From the IMG/VR virus record IMGVR_UViG_3300005526_000018, positions 1 to 34,498 of that record: a DNA stretch of 34,498 nucleotides; one strand, given 5' to 3'. The stretch is from a virus. A program made the translations under genes and the position numbers. The notes below the pieces were generated by a model, which saw only the letters and a list, made by a program, of their open reading frames with translations, was not told where the DNA came from and made no database searches. Position 1 is the stretch's first letter. Every line of letters begins with the position of its first letter. Of the stretch, positions 23,198-34,498 are shown piece by piece.

Positions 23198-23224
23198 CGC
23201 AAGTAAAACAACGTATATAATGAG
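23198..23224 (+). promoter_or_regulatory. Promoter-like element P1 (CGCA-N14-TATAATGAG)
   Basis: CGCA 23198-23201, exactly 14 bases, TATAAT 23216-23221, then GAG. It precedes the 98-residue gene at 23239. One of seven copies with the same spacing; no TTGACA-like -35 box at the usual place. CGCA lies slightly downstream of the normal -35 position. Confidence 0.8.
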
Positions 23225-23238
23225 ACTACAGAAGGGAC

Positions 23239-23535
23239 ATGGAATTGAGACGATTGTTTACGATCGAATCGTCAATCCTAGATGAGCCCATTGAGAAGGT
23301 TCTGACCGATATGAACACATATGGGCCAGATTCCGAGGAATATCCTAAGCTGATCGATCATCTTGAACGATTGACTCGAATGAAGGCAGAAGAAGGACGC
23401 CGACAGCGAGTCAGTCCGGATACGATGGCGATCGTGCTCGGAAACATCTTGGGGATACTGGTCATTGTGGCATACGAGCAGAAGCATGTCATGGTATCGA
23501 AGGGATTGGGGTTCGTTCTACGAACGAGGTCATAA
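23239..23535 (+). CDS. Small phage membrane protein (98 aa)
   Basis: Charged helical N-terminal half (EPIEKVLTDMNTYGPDSEEYPKLIDHLERLTRMKAEEG) and a membrane helix at about 63-80 (DTMAIVLGNILGILVIVAYEQ), ending 'VSKGLGFVLRTRS'. This plan, with a basic end after the helix, recurs in many phages and has no known role to me. Expressed from P1, with the start AUG some 15 bases downstream of GAG and an AGAAGGG ribosome site. A hairpin terminator follows, making a stand-alone promoter-gene-terminator unit. Confidence 0.7.
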   Translation: MELRRLFTIESSILDEPIEKVLTDMNTYGPDSEEYPKLIDHLERLTRMKAEEGRRQRVSPDTMAIVLGNILGILVIVAYEQKHVMVSKGLGFVLRTRS

Positions 23536-23560
23536 TCTAAGACCAGACGTAGTGGAAGGC

Positions 23561-23599
23561 ATAGAAGCTGTGTAAAGAGTACATGGCTTCTATGTTTTT
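23561..23599 (+). terminator. Rho-independent terminator after the 98-aa gene
   Basis: CATAGAAGC (23561-23569) pairs with GCTTCTATG (23586-23594); inner bases TGTGT and ACATG extend the stem to 14 pairs (two G-U), leaving a short AAAGAGT loop. TTTTT follows at 23595-23599. Confidence 0.85.
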
Positions 23600-23699
23600 C
23601 GCCATATTTACAAGGATTCTAAATTTTTTAACTCTTTTTGTAAAAAACTACCCTCTGTGTTGCGTTCTAAGCCACGAAAAAGGGTTAGGAGGTATAAAG

Positions 23700-23840
23700 G
23701 TGCCGGAAAGGGGGTCACGTCGCTCATATCACAAAAGAGAGGACTATCAGCCGGATTTGCGTATTTTTCATCAAAAAAATCCCGGGGGGAAGATTTCAAA
23801 AACTATTAATATACAAACGCAGATTATTCAGCTCATATAA
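23700..23840 (+). CDS. Small basic protein, unknown (46 aa)
   Basis: GTG 23700 has a strong AGGAGGT site seven bases upstream. The product is basic and polar (PERGSRRSYHKREDYQPDLR), with KNPGGKISK in the second half. The DNA of that stretch (CCCGGGGGG in an A-rich setting) resembles the left edge of the window in the same frame. About 100 AT-rich bases without a recognised promoter separate it from the terminator upstream. No domain recognised; the stop TAA lies inside P2. Confidence 0.5.
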   Translation: MPERGSRRSYHKREDYQPDLRIFHQKNPGGKISKTINIQTQIIQLI

Positions 23841-23844
23841 TGAG
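23818..23844 (+). promoter_or_regulatory. Promoter-like element P2 (CGCA-N14-TATAATGAG)
   Basis: CGCA 23818-23821, 14 bases, TATAAT 23836-23841, GAG 23842-23844. It overlaps the end of the 46-residue gene and drives the 71-residue membrane protein gene at 23865. Confidence 0.8.
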
Positions 23845-23864
23845 GTAATCACGAAAGGATTTAT

Positions 23865-24080
23865 ATGTTCAAGAACCGAACAGTACAAGTCGACGTGGTG
23901 AAGAAGAACACGAAGGCCACAGAGTCGAGCGTGATCGACGACATGAAACTCGAGAACAAGCGTATTTACATTACGAACTTGGTCCAGAGTAGCATCAAGA
24001 AGATCGCAATCGGCGTGTGCGCATACGTGATCTTGGACACCGTTCGTCAAGTAGCTGTGGAGAAGGCAAAATCACAGTGA
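23865..24080 (+). CDS. Small membrane protein (71 aa), P2 unit
   Basis: Charged N-terminus (KNRTVQVDVVKKNTKATESS) then a probable membrane helix (about 45-62, IAIGVCAYVILDTVRQV) and Lys-rich end. Codons are GC-rich (many -C and -G third bases such as GTC, GAC, AAG, CTC) compared with the AT-rich genes around, as expected of a strongly expressed gene or one matched to its host. AAAGGA precedes ATG 23865. A terminator hairpin follows directly. Confidence 0.65.
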   Translation: MFKNRTVQVDVVKKNTKATESSVIDDMKLENKRIYITNLVQSSIKKIAIGVCAYVILDTVRQVAVEKAKSQ

Positions 24081-24087
24081 ACCCAAA

Positions 24088-24116
24088 GCCTACATCCTGC
24101 AAGGGATTTAGGTTTT
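24088..24116 (+). terminator. Hairpin terminator after the 71-aa gene
   Basis: CCTA-C-ATCC (24089-24097) pairs with GGGAT-T-TAGG (24103-24112) around a TGCAA loop, with one internal mismatch, followed by TTTT. P3 starts at its T-run. Confidence 0.7.
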
Positions 24117-24143
24117 CGCAAGATTTTCACGTCTTATAATGAG
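24117..24143 (+). promoter_or_regulatory. Promoter-like element P3 driving structured RNA 1
   Basis: CGCA 24117-24120, 14 bases, TATAAT 24135-24140, GAG 24141-24143. No gene follows; the next bases begin a strong RNA fold. Confidence 0.8.
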
Positions 24144-24241
24144 AGGAAGTTCCATCTGGCTGATGGATAATGAACGATACGATTGCTTAACCAACAGCAG
24201 TTAGATAAGGACCACGGTTCGCTTCCTCTCATATAGTTTTT
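24141..24241 (+). ncRNA. Structured RNA 1 (about 100 nt), no coding content
   Basis: GAGAGGAAG (24141-24149) pairs perfectly with CTTCCTCTC (24222-24230), closing an 81-100 nt fold, followed by ATATAGTTTTT, a terminator-like end. Inside, TCCATC/GATGGA (24151-24156 with 24162-24167) makes a six-pair hairpin with a TGGCT loop; TTAAC/GTTAG is a weaker second. No ORF of use, no T-arm or CCA, so it is not a tRNA. The closing helix begins right at the last bases of P3, so it only forms if the transcript starts at or next to GAGAG. Function unknown. Confidence 0.65.
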
Positions 24242-24242
24242 C

Positions 24243-24269
24243 CGCAATATTTTCATGGTATATAATGAG
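24243..24269 (+). promoter_or_regulatory. Promoter-like element P4 (CGCA-N14-TATAATGAG)
   Basis: CGCA 24243-24246, 14 bases, TATAAT 24261-24266, GAG 24267-24269. It starts two bases after the T-run of RNA 1 and drives the 57-residue gene. Confidence 0.8.
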
Positions 24270-24289
24270 ATCAACCGAAAGGAAATGAA

Positions 24290-24463
24290 ATGACGTGGAA
24301 AGAGAAGCTCAAGAGGAACTTTGACGAGAACCCGCTTGCAGTCATCGCTATCGGAGCTCTGGCAGTTACGGCTGCTGCGAAGCTCATCGATTCGATGAGT
24401 GCGGCGCAAGGTCGCAAAGCCTACGCGAGACAGATCGACTACAAGATCATGCACAAGGGCTGA
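24290..24463 (+). CDS. Small membrane protein (57 aa), P4 unit
   Basis: Positively charged start (TWKEKLKRNFDENP), one membrane helix (about 16-33, LAVIAIGALAVTAAAKLI) and a basic C-terminus (GRKAYARQIDYKIMHKG). AAAGGAAA lies upstream of ATG 24290. GC-rich codons mark it, like the other small genes in this block, as unlike the AT-rich structural genes. A strong terminator follows. Confidence 0.65.
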   Translation: MTWKEKLKRNFDENPLAVIAIGALAVTAAAKLIDSMSAAQGRKAYARQIDYKIMHKG

Positions 24464-24470
24464 GAACAAT

Positions 24471-24502
24471 GCCTAAGACCCAACACGGGTTTTAGGCTTT
24501 CT
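24471..24502 (+). terminator. Rho-independent terminator after the 57-aa gene
   Basis: GCCTAAGACCC (24471-24481), loop AACAC, GGGTTTTAGGC (24487-24497) with one G-U pair, then a TTTCTGTTTC stretch. Confidence 0.85.
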
Positions 24503-24526
24503 GTTTCTATTAGAAAGGAGTACACA

Positions 24527-24976
24527 ATGAAGAAGATCCTACCCACTATTGGCGTTATCGCCCTAGTGGTGTCAACTACCAGCTGTACTTGGAATCAGAT
24601 TGCTTTCTGGAACACTAAGATAGCTGAAGTAGCTGCAACACCAGATCCTGCTGATGACATTGCTTTGAAGCAGATCATCGATTCCATTCCACCGGAACCA
24701 GATACTTCTTGTCGTGAATGGTATTGGTATGCCATCGAAGCTGGTTTCACTCATCAGCAGTGGATTTATCCATTGAGTGGCATCATGTGGAGAGAGTCAA
24801 ACTGTGATCCTAATGCGCATAATCCATCCGGAGCTACTGGATTGACTCAAGTGATGCCAATGTGGATCGATGATTGTGGTGGTGGCAATCTACGAGATCC
24901 AGTGTTCAATCTTGCTTGTGCTCATCATATTTGGGAAGTTTCAGGTTGGGGGGCTTGGAGTACTTATCCGCCGTGA
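24527..24976 (+). CDS. Lytic transglycosylase-like lipoprotein (149 aa)
   Basis: The N-terminus is a signal peptide with a lipobox-like end (KKILPTIGVIALVVSTTSC, Cys20). The rest has a lysozyme-like (SLT) fold pattern: IMWRESNCDPNAHNPSGATGLTQVM with catalytic Glu90, then DPVFNLACAHHIW and a Trp-rich end. Such an enzyme would cut glycan strands from outside the membrane, unlike the cytoplasmic-start amidase at 4281. Possible roles: assisting lysis or local wall opening, or changing the host surface against superinfection. AAAGGAG precedes ATG 24527. No P-element is visible directly upstream, so it depends on read-through. Confidence 0.75.
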   Translation: MKKILPTIGVIALVVSTTSCTWNQIAFWNTKIAEVAATPDPADDIALKQIIDSIPPEPDTSCREWYWYAIEAGFTHQQWIYPLSGIMWRESNCDPNAHNPSGATGLTQVMPMWIDDCGGGNLRDPVFNLACAHHIWEVSGWGAWSTYPP

Positions 24977-25003
24977 CGCAAGAAATACACCTTATATAAT
25001 GAG
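24977..25003 (+). promoter_or_regulatory. Promoter-like element P5 driving structured RNA 2
   Basis: CGCA 24977-24980 directly after the transglycosylase stop, 14 bases, TATAAT 24995-25000, GAG 25001-25003. It points into the structured RNA 2 region. Confidence 0.8.
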
Positions 25004-25128
25004 AGGAAGGTGAGACACGCCTGTGCGAGGAGAAGATCCTTGCCCACCTGGTGGAGCTCTGTCTGAGGACATCCCATAAATCACGATTTGCGATGGGTCG
25101 TGAACCCTAGTCCTCTCATTTCTTTTTT
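25001..25128 (+). ncRNA. Structured RNA 2 (about 128 nt) with pseudoknot
   Basis: GAGAGGA (25001-25007) pairs with TCCTCTC (25111-25117), closing a fold that ends in a T-run (25123-25128). Inside: AGGTG/CACCT (25008-25012, 25045-25049) encloses a hairpin GCGAGGA/TCCTTGC (25025-25031, 25037-25043, loop GAAGA). Further on, CCCAT (25073-25077) pairs with ATGGG (25093-25097) and TCACGA (25081-25086) with TCGTGA (25098-25103), an interleaved arrangement that makes an H-type pseudoknot. No ORF is present. Same ends and neighbourhood as RNA 1, unrelated interior. The ribosome site AAAGGAGG of the next gene follows the T-run. Confidence 0.68.
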
Positions 25129-25142
25129 CGAAAGGAGGAATC

Positions 25143-25271
25143 ATGTCCGATTGTAACTGCAAGAAGCATTATGGCTTCTTTAGCTTTATCTGGGATGTCT
25201 TTATGACTCTCTTAACGTGCGGATTTTGGCTTATTTGGATCTTCGTTCGAGAAATGCGCAAGGATAGGTGA
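25143..25271 (+). CDS. Cys-containing small membrane protein (42 aa)
   Basis: ATG 25143 after perfect AAAGGAGG. Starts SDCNCKKHYG, then one long hydrophobic segment (about 12-35, FFSFIWDVFMTLLTCGFWLIWIF) and a basic end (REMRKDR). Holin-like size and topology are possible. Stop TGA overlaps the ATG of the next gene, so translation is coupled. Confidence 0.6.
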   Translation: MSDCNCKKHYGFFSFIWDVFMTLLTCGFWLIWIFVREMRKDR

Positions 25272-25978
25272 TGAATCTAAGACCCGTTATTAAAGCTCAT
25301 TCACCCATAATTCTTTCTGTTCTGGCAGGATTAGGAACCCTTGCCACTGTATATTTGACAGGAAAGGCATCATTCGAAGCAGCTGAGATACTTAGAAAGA
25401 ATAAAGAAGCTTCTAGCTTAAAGGAACGTACTCGTCTTGTTTGGAAATGTTATATCCCAACAGCAATTTCAGCGACTTCTACGATCATTTGCATCGCAGG
25501 CTCAAATCGATTGGGAGCTCGAAAGACCCTTGCCGCTCAGACTGCATTCGCCATCACTGAGCGAGCATATTCTGAGTATCGAGATCGAGTCATTGAAGAG
25601 TACGGTGCACGTAAAGATCAATCCATTCGAGATTCGATTGCAGAAGAACAGATAAAGAAGAATCCACCTCCAGCACCAGATATTCTCATTAGCGGGCCTG
25701 GGAATGTCTTGTGCTGTGAGTTATTTACTGGGAGATATTGGACGAGCGATATGGAGACTTTGCGGAAGGCTCAGAACGAGCTTAATGCAAGGCTCTTGAA
25801 GCATGACTATGCCACATTGGACGATTTCTATTACATAATCAATTTAGGGCCAACTACATATTCTGGAGAGATGGGCTGGAAATCAGATAAATTAATGGAG
25901 TTGGAATTTTCCACTCTGCTCACTGAAGATGGAAGACCGTGTCTTGCATTTAGTTACAATTATACTACATCACTCTGA
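25271..25978 (+). CDS. DUF6353-like phage membrane protein, copy 1 (235 aa)
   Basis: Two hydrophobic segments (about 13-30, PIILSVLAGLGTLATVYL; about 61-79, YIPTAISATSTIICIAG) are followed by 'ALAAxxxFAITERAYSEYRDRVIEEYGARKDQSI', a soluble middle, and a beta-rich end with YIINLGPTTY. The protein at 27576 has the same plan, including Y.D.R-DRV-E-YG after the second helix. The family is widespread in phages of Gram-positive hosts, role unknown. ATG 25271 overlaps the upstream stop (TGATG) and follows AGGATAGG; GTG 25268 is in frame but less likely. Confidence 0.7.
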   Translation: MNLRPVIKAHSPIILSVLAGLGTLATVYLTGKASFEAAEILRKNKEASSLKERTRLVWKCYIPTAISATSTIICIAGSNRLGARKTLAAQTAFAITERAYSEYRDRVIEEYGARKDQSIRDSIAEEQIKKNPPPAPDILISGPGNVLCCELFTGRYWTSDMETLRKAQNELNARLLKHDYATLDDFYYIINLGPTTYSGEMGWKSDKLMELEFSTLLTEDGRPCLAFSYNYTTSL

Positions 25979-25989
25979 AAGCGGGTAAG

Positions 25990-26088
25990 ATGAAGAAGTT
26001 TTTCATGATCATAGGCGTTATTGCGACAGTCGTTACGGTTGTTGCTTTCATTAAGTTTAAGATCTTGAATGGAGCGCCAACGCAGTAA
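25990..26088 (+). CDS. Tiny membrane protein (32 aa)
   Basis: ATG 25990 after a weak GGGTAAG site. Basic start (KKFF), one hydrophobic stretch (MIIGVIATVVTVVAFIKF), short polar end. Its stop codon overlaps promoter element P6. Sequence features are only those of a small single-pass membrane protein. Confidence 0.5.
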   Translation: MKKFFMIIGVIATVVTVVAFIKFKILNGAPTQ

Positions 26089-26107
26089 TTTCATTGGTTA
26101 TAGTGAG
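26081..26107 (+). promoter_or_regulatory. Promoter-like element P6 (CGCA-N14-TATAGTGAG)
   Basis: CGCA 26081-26084, 14 bases, TATAGT 26099-26104, GAG 26105-26107. One base differs from TATAAT. Drives the 56-residue gene at 26130. Confidence 0.75.
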
Positions 26108-26129
26108 AACAAACTGAAAGGAATGGATA

Positions 26130-26300
26130 ATGGATGAAGCTGCTGCGCAGGTCGCAAAGATCGTGCTACCGACATCAGCAAAACTTCTGAGGTGGGCAAT
26201 TGCCGGAATGGCCGGACTTGCTGCCTCAGCGATTGCTGAGCAGGTATTCGACAAGGGATACGCGCAATACTTGATTCAGAAAACCGGCAGAATTCAGTAA
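26130..26300 (+). CDS. Small membrane protein (56 aa), P6 unit
   Basis: Amphipathic start (DEAAAQVAKIVLPTSAKLLRW), hydrophobic Ala/Gly-rich helix (about 22-37, WAIAGMAGLAASAIAE) and polar end. AAAGGA lies seven bases before ATG 26130. Terminator downstream completes a promoter-gene-terminator unit like those at 23865 and 24290. GC-rich codons. Confidence 0.65.
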   Translation: MDEAAAQVAKIVLPTSAKLLRWAIAGMAGLAASAIAEQVFDKGYAQYLIQKTGRIQ

Positions 26301-26311
26301 GAACTCAAAAG

Positions 26312-26342
26312 AGGAGGGAGCCCTACATGGGCTCTTTCCTTT
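26312..26342 (+). terminator. Rho-independent terminator after the 56-aa gene
   Basis: AGGAGGGAGCCC (26312-26323), loop TACAT, GGGCTCTTTCCT (26329-26340) pairs along 12 positions with two G-U pairs; the T-rich right arm serves as the U-run. No P-element follows before the next genes, so their promoter is not seen. Confidence 0.75.
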
Positions 26343-26361
26343 CTCATAGCAAAGGATATCG

Positions 26362-26817
26362 ATGCTTAAACGTGACATCACATACGAAGATTTCAATGGC
26401 GAGCAAGCCACAGATACGTTTTATTTCAATTTAACAAAGACGGAAATTCTCGATCTTGAAGTTCGTCATAATGGGGGCCTTGAGGCATCTATTACAAGGA
26501 TGGTCAAGGCTCAAGATGTTAAGGCGGTCATTGAAGAAGTAAAATATATCATTCTCATGGCTTATGGATTAAGAGAAGCTGATGGGAAACGATTTATCAA
26601 AAGTGATGAATTGCGTGAAGCATTCTCTCAAACAGCTGCGTTTGACGCCTTGTTCATGGAGCTTGCGGTAAACGACGAGGCTGCAACCAAATTCATTAGA
26701 GGCATCCTTCCCAAGGATGTGGTTGGGGAAATGACTGCACCTCTGACGTCTATGCCTCCTCCTCCAGCGACCACAGTTCCTCCAGATAAACTTCCGCCTA
26801 TGCGGGATAAGGAGTAA
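26362..26817 (+). CDS. Conserved phage protein, unknown (151 aa)
   Basis: LKRDITYEDFNGEQATDTFYFNLTKTEILDLE opens the protein with a small beta fold, then helices 'VIEEVKYIILMAYGLREADGKRFIKSDELREAFSQTAAFDALFMELA' and 'FIRGILPKDVVGEM'; the tail is Pro-rich. This pattern occurs in phages of Gram-positive hosts and looks like a small tail-chaperone-type fold, but it lies far from the tail genes, so I leave it unassigned. AAAGGA precedes ATG 26362. Opens an operon running to 34.3 kb. Confidence 0.65.
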   Translation: MLKRDITYEDFNGEQATDTFYFNLTKTEILDLEVRHNGGLEASITRMVKAQDVKAVIEEVKYIILMAYGLREADGKRFIKSDELREAFSQTAAFDALFMELAVNDEAATKFIRGILPKDVVGEMTAPLTSMPPPPATTVPPDKLPPMRDKE

Positions 26818-26818
26818 A

Positions 26819-27436
26819 ATGGATTACCAAGGTAACACCAATAAGGATAAAGAACCAAAAATTGAGAAAAAGCCTGAAATTGAAAAGGTTGTTACTGGAG
26901 AAGTTGTTCAAAAGCCGAAGCCTCTTACTCGTAAATTCAAAGAGACCTTCTTTGGCGGAGATCTCAAGATGTCCATGCGATATGTCGCCGGAGACGTTAT
27001 GCTTCCTGCCTTGAGGAACCTAATAGTTGATATGACGACAAAAGGCATGGAGCGTATTGTATTTGGTGAATCTTTGTATCGTCGTCGTCCAACAGAATAT
27101 CGTTCTAGGGTTCAATACAATAATCCAATCTATCGGCCAGATCCAAGAGAATTAAGTAGAGGACGACTTCCAGATCAACGTCCATATCGTACAAACAGAC
27201 GCGATATGAATGAGATTTTCGTTGAAGATCGTGGAGAAGCTGAACTTGTCGTAGAACGATTGATTGATATTATCGATAAGTATGAAGTAGTGTCTGTGGC
27301 TGATCTTTTGGACCTTCTTGGTCAACCGTCAGTTCACACAGATAACAAATGGGGATGGACATATTTGAAGAACATCGAGATTCGTCAAACTCGTGACGGA
27401 TATTTAATCGATCTTCCTGCACCAGAGGAAATTTAA
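26819..27436 (+). CDS. Conserved phage protein with basic middle, unknown (205 aa)
   Basis: Lys/Glu-rich disordered start (about 1-40), then 'AGDVMLPALRNLIVDMTTKGMERIVFGES', an Arg-rich stretch (YRRRPTEYRSRVQYNNP), and a C-terminal domain 'DRGEAELVVERLIDIIDKYEVVSVADLLDLLGQPSVHTDNKWGWTYL' ending 'GYLIDLP'. Such proteins recur next to DUF6353-type genes; no function is known to me. Helix-turn-helix-like spacing in the C-terminal part could mean nucleic acid binding, but this is weak. GGAGTAAA precedes ATG 26819. Confidence 0.65.
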   Translation: MDYQGNTNKDKEPKIEKKPEIEKVVTGEVVQKPKPLTRKFKETFFGGDLKMSMRYVAGDVMLPALRNLIVDMTTKGMERIVFGESLYRRRPTEYRSRVQYNNPIYRPDPRELSRGRLPDQRPYRTNRRDMNEIFVEDRGEAELVVERLIDIIDKYEVVSVADLLDLLGQPSVHTDNKWGWTYLKNIEIRQTRDGYLIDLPAPEEI

Positions 27437-27579
27437 TGTCAGAAACTGATCAATATCGAGAAGAACTAAAGAAGGCATATCCTTCTAAGCAATGGGCGGA
27501 GAAGGTTGATCGAATGCGCCCGGATCAAGTAACAGCCATTTATATTCGGCTTCGCTCGCAGGGAAAGTTGGCGAAATGA
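27436..27579 (+). CDS. Small conserved phage protein (47 aa)
   Basis: ATG 27436 overlaps the previous stop (TAATG). The product 'YPSKQWAEKVDRMRPDQVTAIYIRLRSQGKLAK' has a helical, basic pattern frequent in phage genomes beside DUF6353-type proteins. Its stop overlaps the start of the next gene (ATGA), so all three are co-translated. No role known to me. Confidence 0.7.
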   Translation: MSETDQYREELKKAYPSKQWAEKVDRMRPDQVTAIYIRLRSQGKLAK

Positions 27580-28442
27580 AGATACCAGTCAGTGTAACAA
27601 GGAATATTGGTAGAAGTATTCTTTTATTTAAGAAGCAATCTCCTAATATCTTCTTTACAGCAGGAGTTGCAGGAATTGTTACAAGTGCAGTTCTTGCTTG
27701 CAAAGCAACATTGAAGCTTAATGAAACGCTTGATGTAATTCAAAGTGATATTTCAGGCGTGAAGAAGCTTAACGAAGGTTCAGAGCAGTATCCGCTCGAA
27801 GAGTATCATAAAGATGTTCTTTATGCTTATGGTCGAGCAGGATTGCAAATGGCCAAGTTATATGGACCAGCAGTTATCATTGGCGGCGCTTCCATTGCTA
27901 TGCTTACTGGTTCTCACATTCAATTGACTCGTCGTAATTCAGCGTTGATGGCAGCTTATGCTGCGGTCCAGAAAGCTTATGATGATTATCGTGATCGTGT
28001 CCGTGAGAAGTATGGCGTAGACACCGAGCTTGATATTTATCATGCTGTGGAAAAGTACACAGAAGAAAAGAATGAAGATGGAACTAAGGAGCTTATTCCG
28101 CACGTAGATCCAAATAAGTGGTCTCCTTACGCACGATTCTTTGATGAGGGATCGCCGGAGTGGAAGAAGAATTCAGAACTGAATCGTTTGTATGTGCAGT
28201 GCCAACAGAATTATGCCAATAATCTACTTCGAGCCAGAGGACATGTATTTCTCAATGAAGTATATGACATGTTAGGCATCGACAGATCACAGGCAGGATC
28301 AGTTGTCGGTTGGGTAATTGGAACAGATGGAGACAATTACGTTGATTTCGGATTACAAAGAGCGTTTAGCTCTGGTCTAATTGGTGAGCGTAATATTCTA
28401 CTTGATTTCAACGTAGATGGTGTCATTTACGATAAGATCTAG
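27576..28442 (+). CDS. DUF6353-like phage membrane protein, copy 2 (288 aa)
   Basis: Hydrophobic helices at about 27-42 (NIFFTAGVAGIVTSAVLACKA) and about 105-122 (LYGPAVIIGGASIAMLTGS), then 'RNSALMAAYAAVQKAYDDYRDRVREKYGVDTELDI', 'YARFFDEGSPEWKKN' and a C-terminal 'LNEVYDMLGIDRSQAG.VVGW' domain. It shares the helix positions and the AYxxYRDRVxExYG motif with the protein at 25271, so these are diverged paralogues. Likely membrane-associated, role unknown. Overlaps the small gene upstream by four bases. Confidence 0.72.
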   Translation: MKIPVSVTRNIGRSILLFKKQSPNIFFTAGVAGIVTSAVLACKATLKLNETLDVIQSDISGVKKLNEGSEQYPLEEYHKDVLYAYGRAGLQMAKLYGPAVIIGGASIAMLTGSHIQLTRRNSALMAAYAAVQKAYDDYRDRVREKYGVDTELDIYHAVEKYTEEKNEDGTKELIPHVDPNKWSPYARFFDEGSPEWKKNSELNRLYVQCQQNYANNLLRARGHVFLNEVYDMLGIDRSQAGSVVGWVIGTDGDNYVDFGLQRAFSSGLIGERNILLDFNVDGVIYDKI

Positions 28443-28451
28443 GAGGATGAA

Positions 28452-29207
28452 GTGCGATTCCAACTCAAACGAGAATGGGTGATTCCTACAGTAGTTGGAG
28501 TCGTCTCATTCGTAGCAGGTGTAGGAGCAGAATATGGCTTCAGGCGATATAGAGAAGAGAAAATTAATAGAGATAAGAAGACAGAACTTGGAGCTACGGA
28601 AATTGAATCTGAAGATGGATACTTTGAACCAGAGCATGTCCAGCTTACTTTCGAGTTTGACGACCGCATGCGACAGTTTAACCGAGCTATCCAAGAAATG
28701 GCCCACGTAGTTAGAGAATTTAAAGAACGTGGATCGGTGTATCTAGCTGAACTTGATTCAGAAGGTCTACATGAAGCTAGACATGCTCATCCGTCCAATG
28801 GTGATAACGTAGTGAACATATTCCCAGTTGAAGAAGATGACTGGGATTATGATGTAGAAGTACCGCTACGTACACCAGATAAGCCTTATATCATTCATGT
28901 AGATGAGTACATGGACAAGGAAGAAGTGGATAATAGACAATCAACGTTAACGTATTATGATGGCGATAATATTCTGTGTGATACAGATGATACGCCAGTC
29001 TATGACGTAGAAAATATTGTCGGCTTCTTAAGGTTTGGTCATGGATCTAAGGATCCAAACGTTTGTTATGTTCGTAACGAGCGTTTAATGGCTGAGTACG
29101 AAATTCTACGTGATCCAGGATATTATCAAGTTCAGATACTAGGTGAGGCACTCGAAGAGAAAGATCTTAAACATTCGAAGCAACTCCCAAAGTTTCGAAT
29201 GGAGTGA
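28452..29207 (+). CDS. Conserved phage protein with N-terminal membrane helix (251 aa)
   Basis: GTG 28452 after AGGAGG. A membrane helix (about 9-27, WVIPTVVGVVSFVAGVGAEYGF) is followed by a coiled, acidic linker and a C-terminal domain 'PYIIHVDEYMDKEEVDNRQSTLTYYDGDNILCDTDD.PVYDVENIVGFLRFGHGSKDPNVCYVRNERL.AEYEIL'. This C-terminal domain is common in phages of Gram-positive bacteria and is of unknown function. Neighbours are DUF6353-like and replication genes, suggesting a membrane-tethered complex. Confidence 0.65.
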   Translation: MRFQLKREWVIPTVVGVVSFVAGVGAEYGFRRYREEKINRDKKTELGATEIESEDGYFEPEHVQLTFEFDDRMRQFNRAIQEMAHVVREFKERGSVYLAELDSEGLHEARHAHPSNGDNVVNIFPVEEDDWDYDVEVPLRTPDKPYIIHVDEYMDKEEVDNRQSTLTYYDGDNILCDTDDTPVYDVENIVGFLRFGHGSKDPNVCYVRNERLMAEYEILRDPGYYQVQILGEALEEKDLKHSKQLPKFRME

Positions 29208-29209
29208 TT

Positions 29210-29746
29210 ATGAGTGAGCCACTTGAAGCACTATATTTCAACTGGCTCTGTGCGAAAGTTGTAGTGACTGATAAGTCAACCCCATCGTTGACACATTGGA
29301 AGCTTTTAAGGACATTGCATCAAATTGAATTTGTATGGCAAATAATGGGTGATGACAATAGAGCTGAAGATGGGAAAGAGTTAAGATACTACTTTACACT
29401 TGCAGCTGATATCCCAGATGATCCGCAATGGAGAATTTTACCAGGATGTTCTCTTCTTGAGATGCTTATAGCTTTTGCTAAAAGAGCAGAATTTCAAACT
29501 GATGATCCAGTTAGAGAATGGTTTTGGGAATTTATAGATAATCTTGGATTAAGTGAGTTTACTGATGCTCACGATTTCACAGAAGAAGATGTAGAAGAAA
29601 TCGTAGAACCTTTTATTTGGCGTACGTATGATTCATCTGGATATGGCGGGTTGTTTCCAATGCATAATCCTAGAGCAGATCAAAGAAGGGTTGAGCTTTG
29701 GTATCAATTCTTTCAATATTTGGAAGATAGAGGACGAGTGGCTTGA
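29210..29746 (+). CDS. Conserved phage protein, unknown (178 aa)
   Basis: Sequence 'EALYFNWLCAKVV', 'LLRTLHQIEFVWQIMGDDNRAEDGKELR', 'GCSLLEMLIAFAKRAEFQTDDPVREWFWEFIDNLGLSEF', 'YGGLFPMHNPRADQRRVELWYQFFQYL' is a soluble, helical protein commonly seen just upstream of replication genes in related phages. No motif for a reaction is visible. ATG 29210 has GGAG six bases upstream; GTG 29204 is in frame but overlaps that site. Confidence 0.65.
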   Translation: MSEPLEALYFNWLCAKVVVTDKSTPSLTHWKLLRTLHQIEFVWQIMGDDNRAEDGKELRYYFTLAADIPDDPQWRILPGCSLLEMLIAFAKRAEFQTDDPVREWFWEFIDNLGLSEFTDAHDFTEEDVEEIVEPFIWRTYDSSGYGGLFPMHNPRADQRRVELWYQFFQYLEDRGRVA

Positions 29747-29757
29747 AAGGGGTGTTC

Positions 29758-32700
29758 GTGGATTTCTATAGAATAAGAACTAAAGAAGCCAAAGGCTTTG
29801 TGCAAGCGTACCCCGATTGGGTTGTTGATCATTTTGATGACTTAATGGTTCGAGGTGGTGCGTTTTATGCTGTATGGAATGAAACCACAGGTATGTGGTC
29901 CACTAATGAATTGGACGTGCAAAGAATTGTTGACAATGATCTATATTCATTCGTTGACGCAGCAGCAAACGATGGACAACTTGTAGAACCTCTGGTTACT
30001 AGGAATTTTAGCACAGGCAGTTGGGAGAGATTTAATAGGTATATTCGAAACCTTCCAGATAAGGGGAATTATCATCCACTAGATGAATGTATAACATTTG
30101 CTAATACCAAGGTCACGAAGAAAGATTATGTAAGTAAGAAACTATCATATCCTCTTGAAGAAGGAAAGACTGATGCCTGGGACGAGCTTCTTAGTGTTCT
30201 ATATTCTCCCAATGAACGAGACAAAATCGAATGGGCTATCGGATCGATTGTCGCAGGCGATTCTAAATGGATTCAAAAGTTCATTGTTTTCTATGGGCCA
30301 CCCGCAAGTGGGAAATCTACGATCATTGGAATTATTGAGAAGCTTTTCTCAGGGTATGTTGCAACCTTCGAGGCCAAAGCCTTAACTAGTAGTAATGGCA
30401 CATTTGCCATGGAGGCGTTTGAAAACAACCCGTTGGTTGCTATTCAACATGATGGTGATTTGTCTAGAGTTGAAGATAACACAAGACTAAATTCTATTGT
30501 TGGTCATGACTCCATGAGCATCAATGTCAAGTATCGGTCATCTTTTACTATTCGTCCGAACGCATTTTTGATTGTTGGAACTAACAAACCAGTCAAGATC
30601 ACAGATGCTAAGGCAGGTAATACAAGGAGATTAATTGATGTCCATCCGACTGGAACGCAAATTGAGCCTGTCCGGTACCATTTACTACTTGAGTCGATCA
30701 ACTATGAGCTTGGGGCTATTGCATATAAGTGCCTTCATCGTTATCGTGCCATGGGTAGATTCTATTACGAGAATTATATTCCTACGAAGATGATGATGTT
30801 GACAGACACTTTCTATAACTTTGTGGAGGCACATTTCGACATATTCAAAGGCTCTGATGGAATTCAGCTCAAACGTGCTTGGGAGCTATACAAGTTATAC
30901 TGCGAAGAATCCAATCTCATCAAGCGGCTTCAATACCACGAGGTTCGAGATGAACTCGGAAACTACTTTGAAGACTTCAAAGATCGATATGTCATGGGAG
31001 ATAGAGAATATCGAAGTGTCTATATCGGCTTTAAAGGCTTGCCTGAACAAGGACCGGTTCCCTTTGTTCCTGACACTTCCTATGTCATTGAACTAAATGA
31101 TTTTGATGATGAACATGGTTCTGCGTTCAATAATGCATATCCTGACCTACCAGCTCAAGAAGCTAAGCCAAGCGGATATCCTGGAAAGAAGTGGGAGAAT
31201 GTCACCACAACTTTGCAAGATATTGACACCACAAAGCTTCACTTTGTAAAGGTTCCAGAAAGTCATATTGTAATCGACTTTGACCTGGTAGATGAGGATG
31301 GAGAAAAAGACCTCGAGCGTAATATCGAGGAGGCATCGAAACTTCCACCAACGTATACAGAGTTAAGCAGGAGCGGAAAAGGATTGCATCTCCATTACAT
31401 ATACAATGGTGATGTGCATGAGTTAAATTCTGTATTGGATGTTGGTGTTGAGATTAAGACATTATTGGGAGATAGTTCCCTCCGGCGGAAACTTACGAAA
31501 TGTAATAATCTTGATATCAATACGCTTAATGGAGGCTTGCCTAAGAAAGAGAAAAAGATGATTGATGCTAAGACTGTTCAAACTGAAAAGGGATTACGTT
31601 TCCTCATTGAACGGAATTTGAGAAAAGAGATTCATCCTGGCACAAAGCCTTCGATTGATTTCATTCATCATATTCTCGAGGATGCGTATAATTCAGGGCT
31701 TAGTTATGATGTAACGGACATGCGTCCTATAATCTTGGCATTCGCCTCACGGAGTACCAATCAGGCGCAAGCTGCCATTAAGATGGTACAAGCGATGAAA
31801 TTTGTTGGTAAGACTGAGATGTCAGAACCTCTTGTTGACGACAAGCCATTGGTATTCTTTGATGTTGAGGTATATCCTAATTTATTCATCGTATGTTGGA
31901 AAACTCGTGGGTCACCAAACGTTGTTCGTATGATCAATCCTACTGGTGATGAAATTGAACCACTCTTTCATCAGAAGTTAGTAGGATTCAACAATCGTCG
32001 ATACGACAATCATATTTTGTATGCAAGGTATATGGGGTACTCACTTGAGGAACTGTTCGATTTAAGTCAACGAATAATTGTGGATACTGCCAGTAAACCT
32101 GATGCGTTATTTGGGGAAGCATACAACATCTCATATGCAGATATATATGATTTTAGTTCTAAGAAGCAGGGATTAAAGAAATTTCAAATTGAGCTAGGAA
32201 TTCATCATAGCGAACTAGATCTCCCTTGGGACCAGCCTGTCGAAGAAGGTATGTGGTCTAAGGTAGAGGAATATTGTGTTAATGATGTAATCTCCACGGA
32301 AGCTGTGTTCGAAGCAAGAGAACAAGATTTCGTAGCTCGTTGTATTTTAGCTGCATTGTCTGAACTGTCTGTTAATCACACAACACAACAACATACAGCT
32401 AGAATCATATTCGGAACCGATAAGAATCCGCAAAAGAAGTTTGTTTATACTGATCTAAGTGAGATGTTTCCAGGATACGTATTTGATGGGAAGGAGAGTT
32501 CTTACCGTGACGAACGTCCAAGTGAGGGCGGTTACGTCTATTCAGAGCCAGGTATATACCAGGACGTCGCTGTATTGGATGTGGCGTCTATGCATCCGAC
32601 GAGTATCATCGAACTTAACCTCTTTGGAAGCTATACACAAAACTTTGCAGCCCTCAAAGAAGCTCGTATGGCAATCAAGCGTAAAGATTATGACAGAGCC

Positions 32701-33516
32701 CGTGGCTTACTTGAAGGTAAGCTCGCCGAGTTTCTGGTTGATGCTGAAGACGACCCTAAAGGTATTGAGACTTTATCGTACGCTCTCAAGATCGTTATTA
32801 ATATCGTCTACGGACTTACAAGCGCTCGTTTCGAGAACGCTTTTCGAGATCACAGGAACAAAGACAACATAGTTGCCAAACGTGGCGCATTATTCATGAT
32901 CAATTTAAAGCACGAAGTGCAAGATAGGGGATTTCAAGTTGTCCACATCAAAACAGACTCGATCAAAATTCCTGGTGCATCGCCCGAAATTATTGATTAT
33001 ATCATACAATACGGAAAACAATACGGCTATGATTTTGACTGGGAGACTACGTACGAGAAGTTCTGTCTCATCAACGATGCTGTATATGTCGCTCGTAGCG
33101 GGGGTAGCTGGACTGCTGTGGGTGCTCAATTCCAGCACCCCTTCGTCTTCAAAGAACTCTTCAGCCACGAACCAATTGAATTCGACGACCTCTGCGAAAC
33201 AAAACACGTAACTCAAGGAACGATGTACCTCGATACTACTGGAGCTACCGATATTGGAGACATGAGACATGTCGGTCGTACTGGTAGTTTCATGCCTGTT
33301 CGCTACGATGGGGGAGATCTGTGGCGAGTAAAGGATGGCAAGAAGTATCATGTATCAGGAACTAAAGATTATAAGTGGATCGAACGTGAACTAGCGGCGT
33401 ATAGGGACAGCATCGACGATCTGCATACTGATATGGATTATTTCGAGGCGCTGAGACAAGACGCAATTAAAGCAATTGAACGATTCGGATCATACGAGGA
33501 GTTTGTTAATGCCTGA
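29758..33516 (+). CDS. Helicase–primase-like–DNA polymerase fusion (1252 aa)
   Basis: Residues about 1-425 form a D5/P4-type SF3 helicase: Walker A GPPASGKST (180-188), acidic QHDGDL (about 229-234), sensor FLIVGTNKP (about 268-276). Residues about 435-690 look like an archaeo-eukaryotic-type primase-polymerase: VIDFDLVD (about 505-512), SRSGKGLHLHY (538-548), VEIK (about 564-567). Residues about 695-1252 are a family-B-type polymerase with 3'-5' exonuclease: FFDVEVYPN (Asp702, Glu704), FNNRRYDNH (Asp750), Y839-CVN-D843; polymerase motif A DVASMHP (Asp941), motif B K1011-IVIN-IVYG, motif C HIKTDSI (Asp1067). The first Asp of the usual DTDS is Lys here. GTG 29758 is chosen because AAAGGGG precedes it by five bases; TTG 29743 is in frame. 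A replisome core on one chain. Confidence 0.82.
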   Translation: MDFYRIRTKEAKGFVQAYPDWVVDHFDDLMVRGGAFYAVWNETTGMWSTNELDVQRIVDNDLYSFVDAAANDGQLVEPLVTRNFSTGSWERFNRYIRNLPDKGNYHPLDECITFANTKVTKKDYVSKKLSYPLEEGKTDAWDELLSVLYSPNERDKIEWAIGSIVAGDSKWIQKFIVFYGPPASGKSTIIGIIEKLFSGYVATFEAKALTSSNGTFAMEAFENNPLVAIQHDGDLSRVEDNTRLNSIVGHDSMSINVKYRSSFTIRPNAFLIVGTNKPVKITDAKAGNTRRLIDVHPTGTQIEPVRYHLLLESINYELGAIAYKCLHRYRAMGRFYYENYIPTKMMMLTDTFYNFVEAHFDIFKGSDGIQLKRAWELYKLYCEESNLIKRLQYHEVRDELGNYFEDFKDRYVMGDREYRSVYIGFKGLPEQGPVPFVPDTSYVIELNDFDDEHGSAFNNAYPDLPAQEAKPSGYPGKKWENVTTTLQDIDTTKLHFVKVPESHIVIDFDLVDEDGEKDLERNIEEASKLPPTYTELSRSGKGLHLHYIYNGDVHELNSVLDVGVEIKTLLGDSSLRRKLTKCNNLDINTLNGGLPKKEKKMIDAKTVQTEKGLRFLIERNLRKEIHPGTKPSIDFIHHILEDAYNSGLSYDVTDMRPIILAFASRSTNQAQAAIKMVQAMKFVGKTEMSEPLVDDKPLVFFDVEVYPNLFIVCWKTRGSPNVVRMINPTGDEIEPLFHQKLVGFNNRRYDNHILYARYMGYSLEELFDLSQRIIVDTASKPDALFGEAYNISYADIYDFSSKKQGLKKFQIELGIHHSELDLPWDQPVEEGMWSKVEEYCVNDVISTEAVFEAREQDFVARCILAALSELSVNHTTQQHTARIIFGTDKNPQKKFVYTDLSEMFPGYVFDGKESSYRDERPSEGGYVYSEPGIYQDVAVLDVASMHPTSIIELNLFGSYTQNFAALKEARMAIKRKDYDRARGLLEGKLAEFLVDAEDDPKGIETLSYALKIVINIVYGLTSARFENAFRDHRNKDNIVAKRGALFMINLKHEVQDRGFQVVHIKTDSIKIPGASPEIIDYIIQYGKQYGYDFDWETTYEKFCLINDAVYVARSGGSWTAVGAQFQHPFVFKELFSHEPIEFDDLCETKHVTQGTMYLDTTGATDIGDMRHVGRTGSFMPVRYDGGDLWRVKDGKKYHVSGTKDYKWIERELAAYRDSIDDLHTDMDYFEALRQDAIKAIERFGSYEEFVNA

Positions 33517-33979
33517 CGAAGCTAAGACATTCATGGTGGAAGATGCTCGAATCATTTTCCGTAACTTTTCAGGAAAGGAAGGTCAATATAATCGAGAAGG
33601 TGATCGAAATTTCGCAGTCGTTCTCACAGATGATGTTGCGGTTCAAATGTTGGCTGACGGATGGAATGTCCGATATCTCGAAGCTCGTGAGGATGGAGAC
33701 GCAGACACACCGTACATCTCAGTCGCGGTTAATTTTAACAATCGACCTCCGAGGGTTGTTTTGCTTACTTCAACGACGCGCACGCAGCTGGATGAACATG
33801 CTGTCGAAGTTCTTGATTGGGCCGATATCAAGACTGCGGATCTCATTGCGAGGGGGTATGATTGGAGTGTCAATGGAAAATCGGGAACAAAAGCATATCT
33901 CCAATCGCTCTTCGTAACTATCGAGGAGGATGCACTAGAACGGAAGTATGCTATTCATGAAGACCCGCCTGCCAATTGA
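33509..33979 (+). CDS. Putative single-stranded DNA-binding protein (156 aa)
   Basis: FMVEDARIIFRNFSGKEGQYNREGDRNFAVVLTDD, WNVRYLEAREDGDADTPYISVAVNF, RPPRVVLLTS and GYDWSVNGKSGTKAYLQSLFVTIEEDALERKYA describe a beta-rich OB-like protein. It follows the polymerase with an eight-base overlap, a common place for single-strand-binding or replication partner proteins. The role is inferred from position and fold impression; no DNA-binding residues are proven. GAGGAG lies seven bases before ATG 33509. Confidence 0.55.
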   Translation: MPDEAKTFMVEDARIIFRNFSGKEGQYNREGDRNFAVVLTDDVAVQMLADGWNVRYLEAREDGDADTPYISVAVNFNNRPPRVVLLTSTTRTQLDEHAVEVLDWADIKTADLIARGYDWSVNGKSGTKAYLQSLFVTIEEDALERKYAIHEDPPAN

Positions 33980-34010
33980 AATAAAATCCCCGCTACAGAT
34001 TGGAAACCTT

Positions 34011-34325
34011 ATGGAATTCGCTACCTTTGTCCGCAAGCCTTTCGTCGTTGAGGCTGTGGAGGTAACCGCTGCGAACATAGCTGAAGTAGCTAAGTATGTA
34101 GGAGATCTTCGTGAGAAGGAGGATGGCACCCCCTATATCCTCGTAGATCGTAGACTGGTTCCGAACGTATTCCGGGTATATCCTGGATTCTTCATGACGA
34201 AGATGGGCGAGAATGTTCGTTGCTACTCGAGGAAGATCTTCAAGGAACAGTTCACGGAGACCACTGACAAGATCAATGCGTGGGTGGAATTCATGAGTAG
34301 CCCGGAACCTAAAGAGGCGCAATAA
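34011..34325 (+). CDS. Conserved small phage protein, unknown (104 aa)
   Basis: ATFVRKPFVVEAVEVTAANIAEVAKYVG, 'YILVDRRLVPNVFRVYPGFFMTKMGENVRCYSRKIFKEQFTE' is a widespread small phage protein pattern ('KPF.VEAV.VT..N....A'), function unknown. ATG 34011 follows TTGGAAA by six bases; in-frame upstream starts lie inside the previous gene. The final codons overlap promoter element P7. Confidence 0.65.
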   Translation: MEFATFVRKPFVVEAVEVTAANIAEVAKYVGDLREKEDGTPYILVDRRLVPNVFRVYPGFFMTKMGENVRCYSRKIFKEQFTETTDKINAWVEFMSSPEPKEAQ

Positions 34326-34344
34326 ATACATGTTATATAATGAG
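34318..34344 (+). promoter_or_regulatory. Promoter-like element P7 (CGCA-N14-TATAATGAG)
   Basis: CGCA 34318-34321, 14 bases, TATAAT 34336-34341, GAG 34342-34344. Eight kilobases from P6, yet with identical spacing. It is followed by a hairpin RNA, not by a gene. Confidence 0.8.
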
Positions 34345-34392
34345 AGAGGGGAGAATGTTGAGGGACACGCTCCTCTCTCTCATATAGTTTTT
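34342..34392 (+). ncRNA. Short hairpin RNA 3 (about 50 nt)
   Basis: GAGAGAGGGGAG (34342-34353) pairs with CTCCTCTCTCTC (34370-34381) along 12 positions with one G-U, loop of 16 bases, then ATATAGTTTTT, the same end as RNA 1. It may be a very short RNA or a terminator/attenuator directly at the promoter. The same GAGAG start and CTCTCATATAG end tie it to RNA 1. Confidence 0.55.
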
Positions 34393-34496: not shown

Positions 34497-34498
34497 CG

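Follow-up and report, generated by a model that had tools for sequence, protein, structure and literature searches.

What recognises a short sequence that recurs seven times on one strand of a phage genome, and what is transcribed from it, if it is a promoter? The window analysed here is an entire public virus record (linear, 34,498 bases), in which the pattern CGCA-N14-TATAnTGAG occurs at the following places:

23198..23224, plus strand: element copy 1; the start codon of the open reading frame (ORF) 23239-23535 lies 14 bases downstream
23818..23844, plus strand: element copy 2, upstream of ORF 23865-24080
24117..24143, plus strand: element copy 3, immediately 5' of predicted small RNA 1
24243..24269, plus strand: element copy 4, upstream of ORF 24290-24463
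24977..25003, plus strand: element copy 5, beginning one base past a stop codon and immediately 5' of predicted small RNA 2
26081..26107, plus strand: element copy 6 (TATAGT), upstream of ORF 26130-26300
34318..34344, plus strand: element copy 7, overlapping the final 8 bases of ORF 33948-34325

A sequence-only reading of this DNA had placed the seven copies at exactly these positions and had given a spacing of exactly 14 bases from CGCA to TATAAT (TATAGT only at 26081), and both hold. GAG directly follows the −10 in all seven copies, and −10 position 2 is A in all of them. The pattern did not occur in 100 dinucleotide shuffles of the window, which excludes chance, and a weight-matrix scan of the window returned these seven sites, at 24-39 bits, and nothing else at or above 12 bits (peak in five mononucleotide shuffles, 2.8 bits). 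The copies cluster in the small-gene region between the tail and replication genes, with a few beyond, and the weight-matrix scan found none upstream of the structural genes of the window. As the same reading had described, they lie in gaps, the sole overlap with a preceding gene being the 8 bases at 34318, and are followed by small ORFs or predicted RNAs. Its remark that the intervening bases differ needs qualification: the sequences vary but not freely, R-N-WWWWW-CA being kept at fixed places, and the bases common to the seven copies read CGCA-R-N-WWWWW-CA-N5-TATARTGAG. Likewise, a TTGACA-like −35 at 16-18 bases is absent upstream of six copies, as it had claimed, but the copy at 24977 has a chance 4/6 match at a spacing of 16.

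Scanning of relatives, which the reading had proposed, revealed a widespread element with fixed strand and spacing that is fuller than first described, namely TCGCA-NR-WWWW-ACA-N5-TATAATGAGA. The consensus of 323 copies is T(90%)-CGCA-N-R-WWWW-A(89%)-CA-N5-TATAATGAGA, with Y-G-S-C-N as the spacer (T-CGCA-N-R-WWWW-A-CA-Y-G-S-C-N-TATAATGAGA). Because some of these loci had been gathered by a pattern that already demanded CA, a search for the box only was rerun in 42 genomes. A −10-like sequence came exactly 5 bases after 225 of the 277 sense-strand sites, compared to 2 of the 70 sites on the antisense strand, such a sequence being counted only when GAG, GGA, GAA or AGG came next; distances other than 5 between the core box and the −10 hardly ever occur. 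In each of the 88 whole records tallied, all copies lie on one strand, and a reversed control pattern had zero matches in all 88. The twelve copies found in Gordonia phage Tanis are located in gaps, one of them overlapping a gene end by 10 bases. Across the relatives, the element always lies on the coding strand, in gaps ahead of small genes and small RNAs: a plausible start codon is found within 60 bases of the −10 in 169 of 222 copies, and some of the remaining copies sit at the head of small RNAs.

The phages with the element infect Streptomyces, Gordonia, Arthrobacter, Rhodococcus and Microbacterium. When the 33-base consensus was compared with 50,697 annotated phage records, matches were found in 198 records, all from phages of these 5 genera and two groups of human-derived contigs; one extra match, of 17 bases and antisense, in a Staphylococcus phage integrase, looks like chance. 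A protein of family PHROG 4291 is encoded in 250 records, which belong to the groups of the 198 records and additionally to Lactococcus, Curtobacterium and a few further ones, the two lists having been compared by genus and, for the records that were fetched (Microbacterium phage Count was checked individually), record by record. Among 27 contigs of at least 35 kb chosen by the DNA pattern alone, 24 encode PHROG 4291. The exceptions include G060 (247 kb), in which the two pattern matches miss the full consensus, and G068, which ends within an ORF at the expected place of the gene. Similarly, 11 of 15 contigs chosen by the terminase of the window encode PHROG 4291; the other four are fragments of 30-35 kb, one of them with a weak partial match only. 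Lactococcus phages 1706, P078 and CHPC971 carry 11-12 copies each of W4(A/T)CA-N5-TATA(A/G)T, with the spacing of 5, compared to a mean of 0.3-0.5 copies in shuffles of 1706 and P078. CGCA is mostly degenerate in the Lactococcus phage copies, which suggests that the W4ACA-N5-TATA(A/G)T core is the older part of the element. The spacing-specific core is absent from Greed and SHEF4, which are negative for the RNA polymerase and have a distant DNA polymerase match. The early promoters of phiC31 were considered as a source of the motif and rejected, phiC31 having neither a copy of the element nor PHROG 4291.

The PHROG 4291 protein, of about 900 residues, is encoded at the right end of the genome. 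The sequence SGADFDGD is invariant in 53 of its relatives and contains DFDGD, a motif of two-barrel RNA polymerases. In a Foldseek search, the AlphaFold model (mean pLDDT 79) matched QDE-1, plant RDR2 and the Thermus phage polymerases 8f5m and 8f72 with E-values of 1e-9 to 1e-6. The match to QDE-1 (E 1e-9) had a structural Z of 15.3 over 372 residues at 4.3 Å, and global TM-scores were low (0.3), indicating that the similarity is confined to the catalytic core (residues 224-717). Thus, with its DxDGD motif and modelled two-barrel fold, the protein is, judging by the model, a relative of QDE-1 and of gp64 of Thermus phage P23-45. A sequence search of the PDB with the polymerase profile matched only helix-turn-helix and helical-repeat proteins, so that the kinship with polymerases rests on fold and motif. 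A homeodomain-like helix-turn-helix match is present in all 53 relatives and a sigma-70 region 4 match in 44 of them; in the modelled protein, helix-turn-helix motifs lie near residues 87-110 and 850-873, and the protein of Streptomyces phage RosaAsantewaa has a further one at 42-66 (about 45-66). This helix-turn-helix/catalytic architecture is kept in 1706 and P078; the Lactococcus phage protein is 38-40% identical and is matched by the family profile along its length. Database records label the protein “RNA-dependent RNA polymerase” (Tanis, Bing, 1706), elsewhere helix-turn-helix DNA-binding domain protein or hypothetical, and, in ReqiPoco6, a structural protein, after gp75 of phage 1706.

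The polymerase gene is usually followed by a second conserved gene: in 28 of 30 phages tested, a gene of about 85 residues (PHROG 4303) comes next, and its product is possibly a partner protein of the polymerase. Examples are:

L128 34310-34558: PHROG 4303 gene
L129 42276-42548: PHROG 4303 gene
L371 47536-47778: PHROG 4303 gene

The window lacks the PHROG 4291 gene, its record stopping at 34498, short of the place where the gene is expected. The large terminase of the window is 83% identical to that of RosaAsantewaa and 91% identical to those of the public virus contigs L211 (G036) and L212 (G037), which also group with the window in the primase-polymerase tree. Both contigs are about 42 kb long, so that the window misses several kilobases, and both encode PHROG 4291. 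The sequence-only reading had advised looking for a sigma factor or RNA polymerase gene in the part it had not seen, and the nearest relatives indeed supply a polymerase gene; the virus of the window would be expected to carry its own in the missing part.

The element phages form one lineage, in which a primase-polymerase, a helicase and nucleases co-occur with the element as well; within a single clade, co-occurrence by itself does not pick the polymerase out among the core genes. Among the non-structural proteins common to nearly all of 30 phages, a helix-turn-helix was seen only in the polymerase, and queries with the RosaAsantewaa and Tanis proteins revealed no sigma factor or separate DNA-binding activator common to these 30 element phages. 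A tree test of whether the −10 variants track the polymerase or the replication genes gave 6 versus 5 changes; the polymerase and primase-polymerase trees are congruent and hence cannot separate the two causes. Collectively, sequence comparison gives good support to the view that the element is promoter-like and would be read by a dedicated phage factor, as the fixed spacing had suggested to the sequence-only reading. Of the three factors which that reading offered, neither a sigma factor nor a separate activator turned up in the scan of shared genes, and a single-chain RNA polymerase is the best supported, here one from the two-barrel (QDE-1/YonO-like) superfamily that carries helix-turn-helix domains.

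Several copies of the element are followed directly by predicted structured RNAs. In the window, these are:

24141..24230, plus strand: predicted small RNA 1, in which a 5' GAGAGGAAG would pair with a 3' CTTCCTCTC, then ATATAGTTTTT (fold z −4.4)
25001..25117, plus strand: predicted small RNA 2, of the R1 family, then a T run and a 42-aa ORF (25143-25271)
34342..34381, plus strand: predicted 40-base hairpin RNA or attenuator (−27.2 kcal/mol, z −5.1), then ATATAGTTTTT

No Rfam family matches the window or the small RNAs. Small RNA 2, the fold z of which is modest (−2.0), scores 83 bits against R1, a covariance model for which the window copy itself was among the 10 sequences used. Across 79 loci the model retrieved 14 copies, of which 4 were new to it:

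Window 25001-25117; L128 4818-4931; L371 13124-13243: R1 family copies
L321, L323, L330, L344, L368, L369, L370, L291, L318, L337, L366: R1 family copies in other loci

All 14 lie directly 3' of the element (2 of them behind variants outside the strict box pattern), and compensatory changes are seen at 11 of 17 base pairs. R1 is thus a conserved structured small-RNA family absent from Rfam. More generally, a helix opened at the element and closed before a T run is present behind 37 of 222 copies, compared to 33 of 2000 control GAG sites. The helix arms start within 3 bases of the −10 end in 28 of these 37 and often extend into the −10 by as many as 3 bases, so that the RNA start is not fixed to one base. 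An RNA starting 7 bases on, as from a sigma70 promoter, would miss most of the arm; the stems therefore favour a start at the −10 end, and longer transcripts could likewise form these arms. Genes for tRNAs (Ala-AGC, Ile-GAT) are also found a few bases 3' of element copies, and the putative phage polymerase may hence transcribe tRNAs too:

L321 11206-11280: tRNA gene behind the element
L326 16167-16255: tRNA gene behind the element
L371 12701-12776: tRNA gene behind the element

Most genomes with the element keep TATAAT, which is the sigma70 consensus as well. Sigma70 promoters have A at −10 position 2 and start transcription about 7 bases downstream of the −10. In T4, MotA-dependent middle promoters have a −10 of the TATAAT type and, instead of a −35, a phage box around −30, and it is conceivable, if unlikely, that TATAAT is recognised here by host RNA polymerase carrying its main sigma factor while a phage activator on CGCA-WWWW-ACA replaces the −35 in a MotA-like manner. 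The fit of TATAAT to a sigma70 −10, the absence of a proper −35 and the position of the box, near the usual one of the MotA box, agree with such an activator, and the authors describing Gordonia phage Vardy took the motif for a sigma70 promoter (PMC9671010). What argues for the polymerase over both host sigma70 and an activator is that A at −10 position 2 is lost across several whole genomes (G or C at every one of the six G026 sites; T at 4 of the 5 G031 sites, 4 of 7 in G033, 7 of 12 in G035 and 4 of 6 in G045), that the core is kept in Lactococcus phages, the hosts of which belong to another phylum, that the small-RNA arms begin at the end of the −10 itself, and that the shared-gene scan showed a helix-turn-helix in no common non-structural protein but the polymerase. 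Unlike in the case of T4 MotA, no common activator was found in that scan and the −10 itself differs between genomes.

The perfect TATAAT of most copies, and a leader, GAGACCCC-CTACGAAAGGA, conserved ahead of start codons in many of them, might alternatively reflect a plain family of host sigma70 promoters with an extended conserved leader that spread along with the small genes. We regard this as very improbable given the lack of a −35, the invariant box 5 bases 5' of the −10, and −10 variants that sigma70 should refuse. Sigma70-type sites are about as frequent antisense as sense, with no clear sense-strand excess, which is thin evidence given how weak −35 boxes are in actinobacteria. Since operators can occur as multi-copy intergenic repeats in actinophages, a non-promoter site, such as an operator bound by a repressor or a signal for processing or assembly, was also considered; yet the single orientation toward the next gene, the −10-like half, the ribosome-binding sites at a fixed distance downstream and the small RNAs starting at the element end leave it scarcely any room.

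Comparative genomics thus makes it very likely that the element serves as the promoter for PHROG 4291, the single-chain two-barrel RNA polymerase encoded by this lineage, and the phages of the lineage appear to transcribe some of their genome with an enzyme of their own rather than that of the host. We infer that PHROG 4291 binds the element, and the start site of the RNA and the timing during infection are inferred likewise. In this model, the TCGCA-NR-WWWW-ACA box, which would span about −30 to −12 relative to the first base of the RNA, is bound by the helix-turn-helix domains of the polymerase; the active site would thereby be positioned to begin RNA at the GAG after TATAAT or no more than about 3 bases from it. 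The units driven by the element would then be short and separate, lie in the central part of the genome and consist of small genes and small RNAs, many of them ended by a stem and T run. More tentatively, the polymerase might need no factor other than its own sigma-like helix-turn-helix modules, begin RNA directly behind TATAAT, and be carried in the virion, transcribing the first genes and structured small RNAs as the DNA enters.

The closest precedent is Thermus phage P23-45, in which two motifs, located as repeated conserved elements upstream of early genes, have been tied to two phage two-barrel polymerases, virion and non-virion, with mapped starts (PMC10770324). The repeated conserved motif and the co-occurring two-barrel polymerase are shared with that system, and the polymerase fold matches the Thermus phage structures 8f72 and 8f5m. 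By contrast, the motifs of P23-45 are AT-rich or GC-rich and come from mapped starts, whereas the element here is known from sequence, belongs to a different phage lineage and accompanies a polymerase with a helix-turn-helix domain at each end. The YonO protein of Bacillus phage SPbeta is likewise a single-chain two-barrel DNA-dependent RNA polymerase with D-x-DGD from a phage of a Gram-positive host (PMC5467207), but the PHROG 4291 profile gives no YonO match at E 100, and the core element was not found in the SPbeta stretch scanned, including the late region, or upstream of yonK. The motif itself has been seen before: for Vardy and Conley, two Gordonia phages of cluster DJ, a 43-50 bp intergenic motif holding a sigma70 −10 was reported (PMC9671010, PMC10868162). 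That motif and the present element are one and the same, the 33-base consensus occurring at 7 places in Vardy and 11 in Conley; those reports concern single genomes and describe neither a link to a phage polymerase nor the box or the wider distribution. In the open-access journal papers searched, we found no account of the element-PHROG 4291 link, the extended consensus or the small-RNA family.

At least 250 phage records encode PHROG 4291, mostly labelled helix-turn-helix, hypothetical or “RNA-dependent RNA polymerase”, and a defined candidate promoter makes the function of the protein directly testable with short DNA and purified protein. For YonO, which is distantly related through its fold class, the promoter sequence had yet to be established as of 2017 (PMC5467207). 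In a large group of phages, those of Streptomyces, Gordonia, Arthrobacter, Rhodococcus and Lactococcus, the element also gives a handle for annotating small RNAs and units of transcription, and the pair may be a new orthogonal polymerase-promoter system.

The surroundings of the element hold several further features. Among the small genes of the window, 24527-24976 encodes a predicted lipoprotein-like lytic transglycosylase with an SLT domain, and 26362-26817 matches the Pfam tail assembly chaperone TAC_17 (E 4.6e-41), apart from the tail genes. Two diverged copies of PHROG 2152 are located at 25268-25978 and 27576-28442; a relative of this family is present in all 30 phages tested, that of RosaAsantewaa matching DUF6353. 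Finally, repeats specific to each phage, e.g., TTAATACACGGT in Tanis, occur in long gaps that precede the nuclease-polymerase operon and are perhaps replication origins:

L128 29831-30129: long repeat-bearing gap
L129 37884-38179: long repeat-bearing gap
L130 41140-41640: long repeat-bearing gap
L374 33875-34309: long repeat-bearing gap
L373 43634-44083: long repeat-bearing gap
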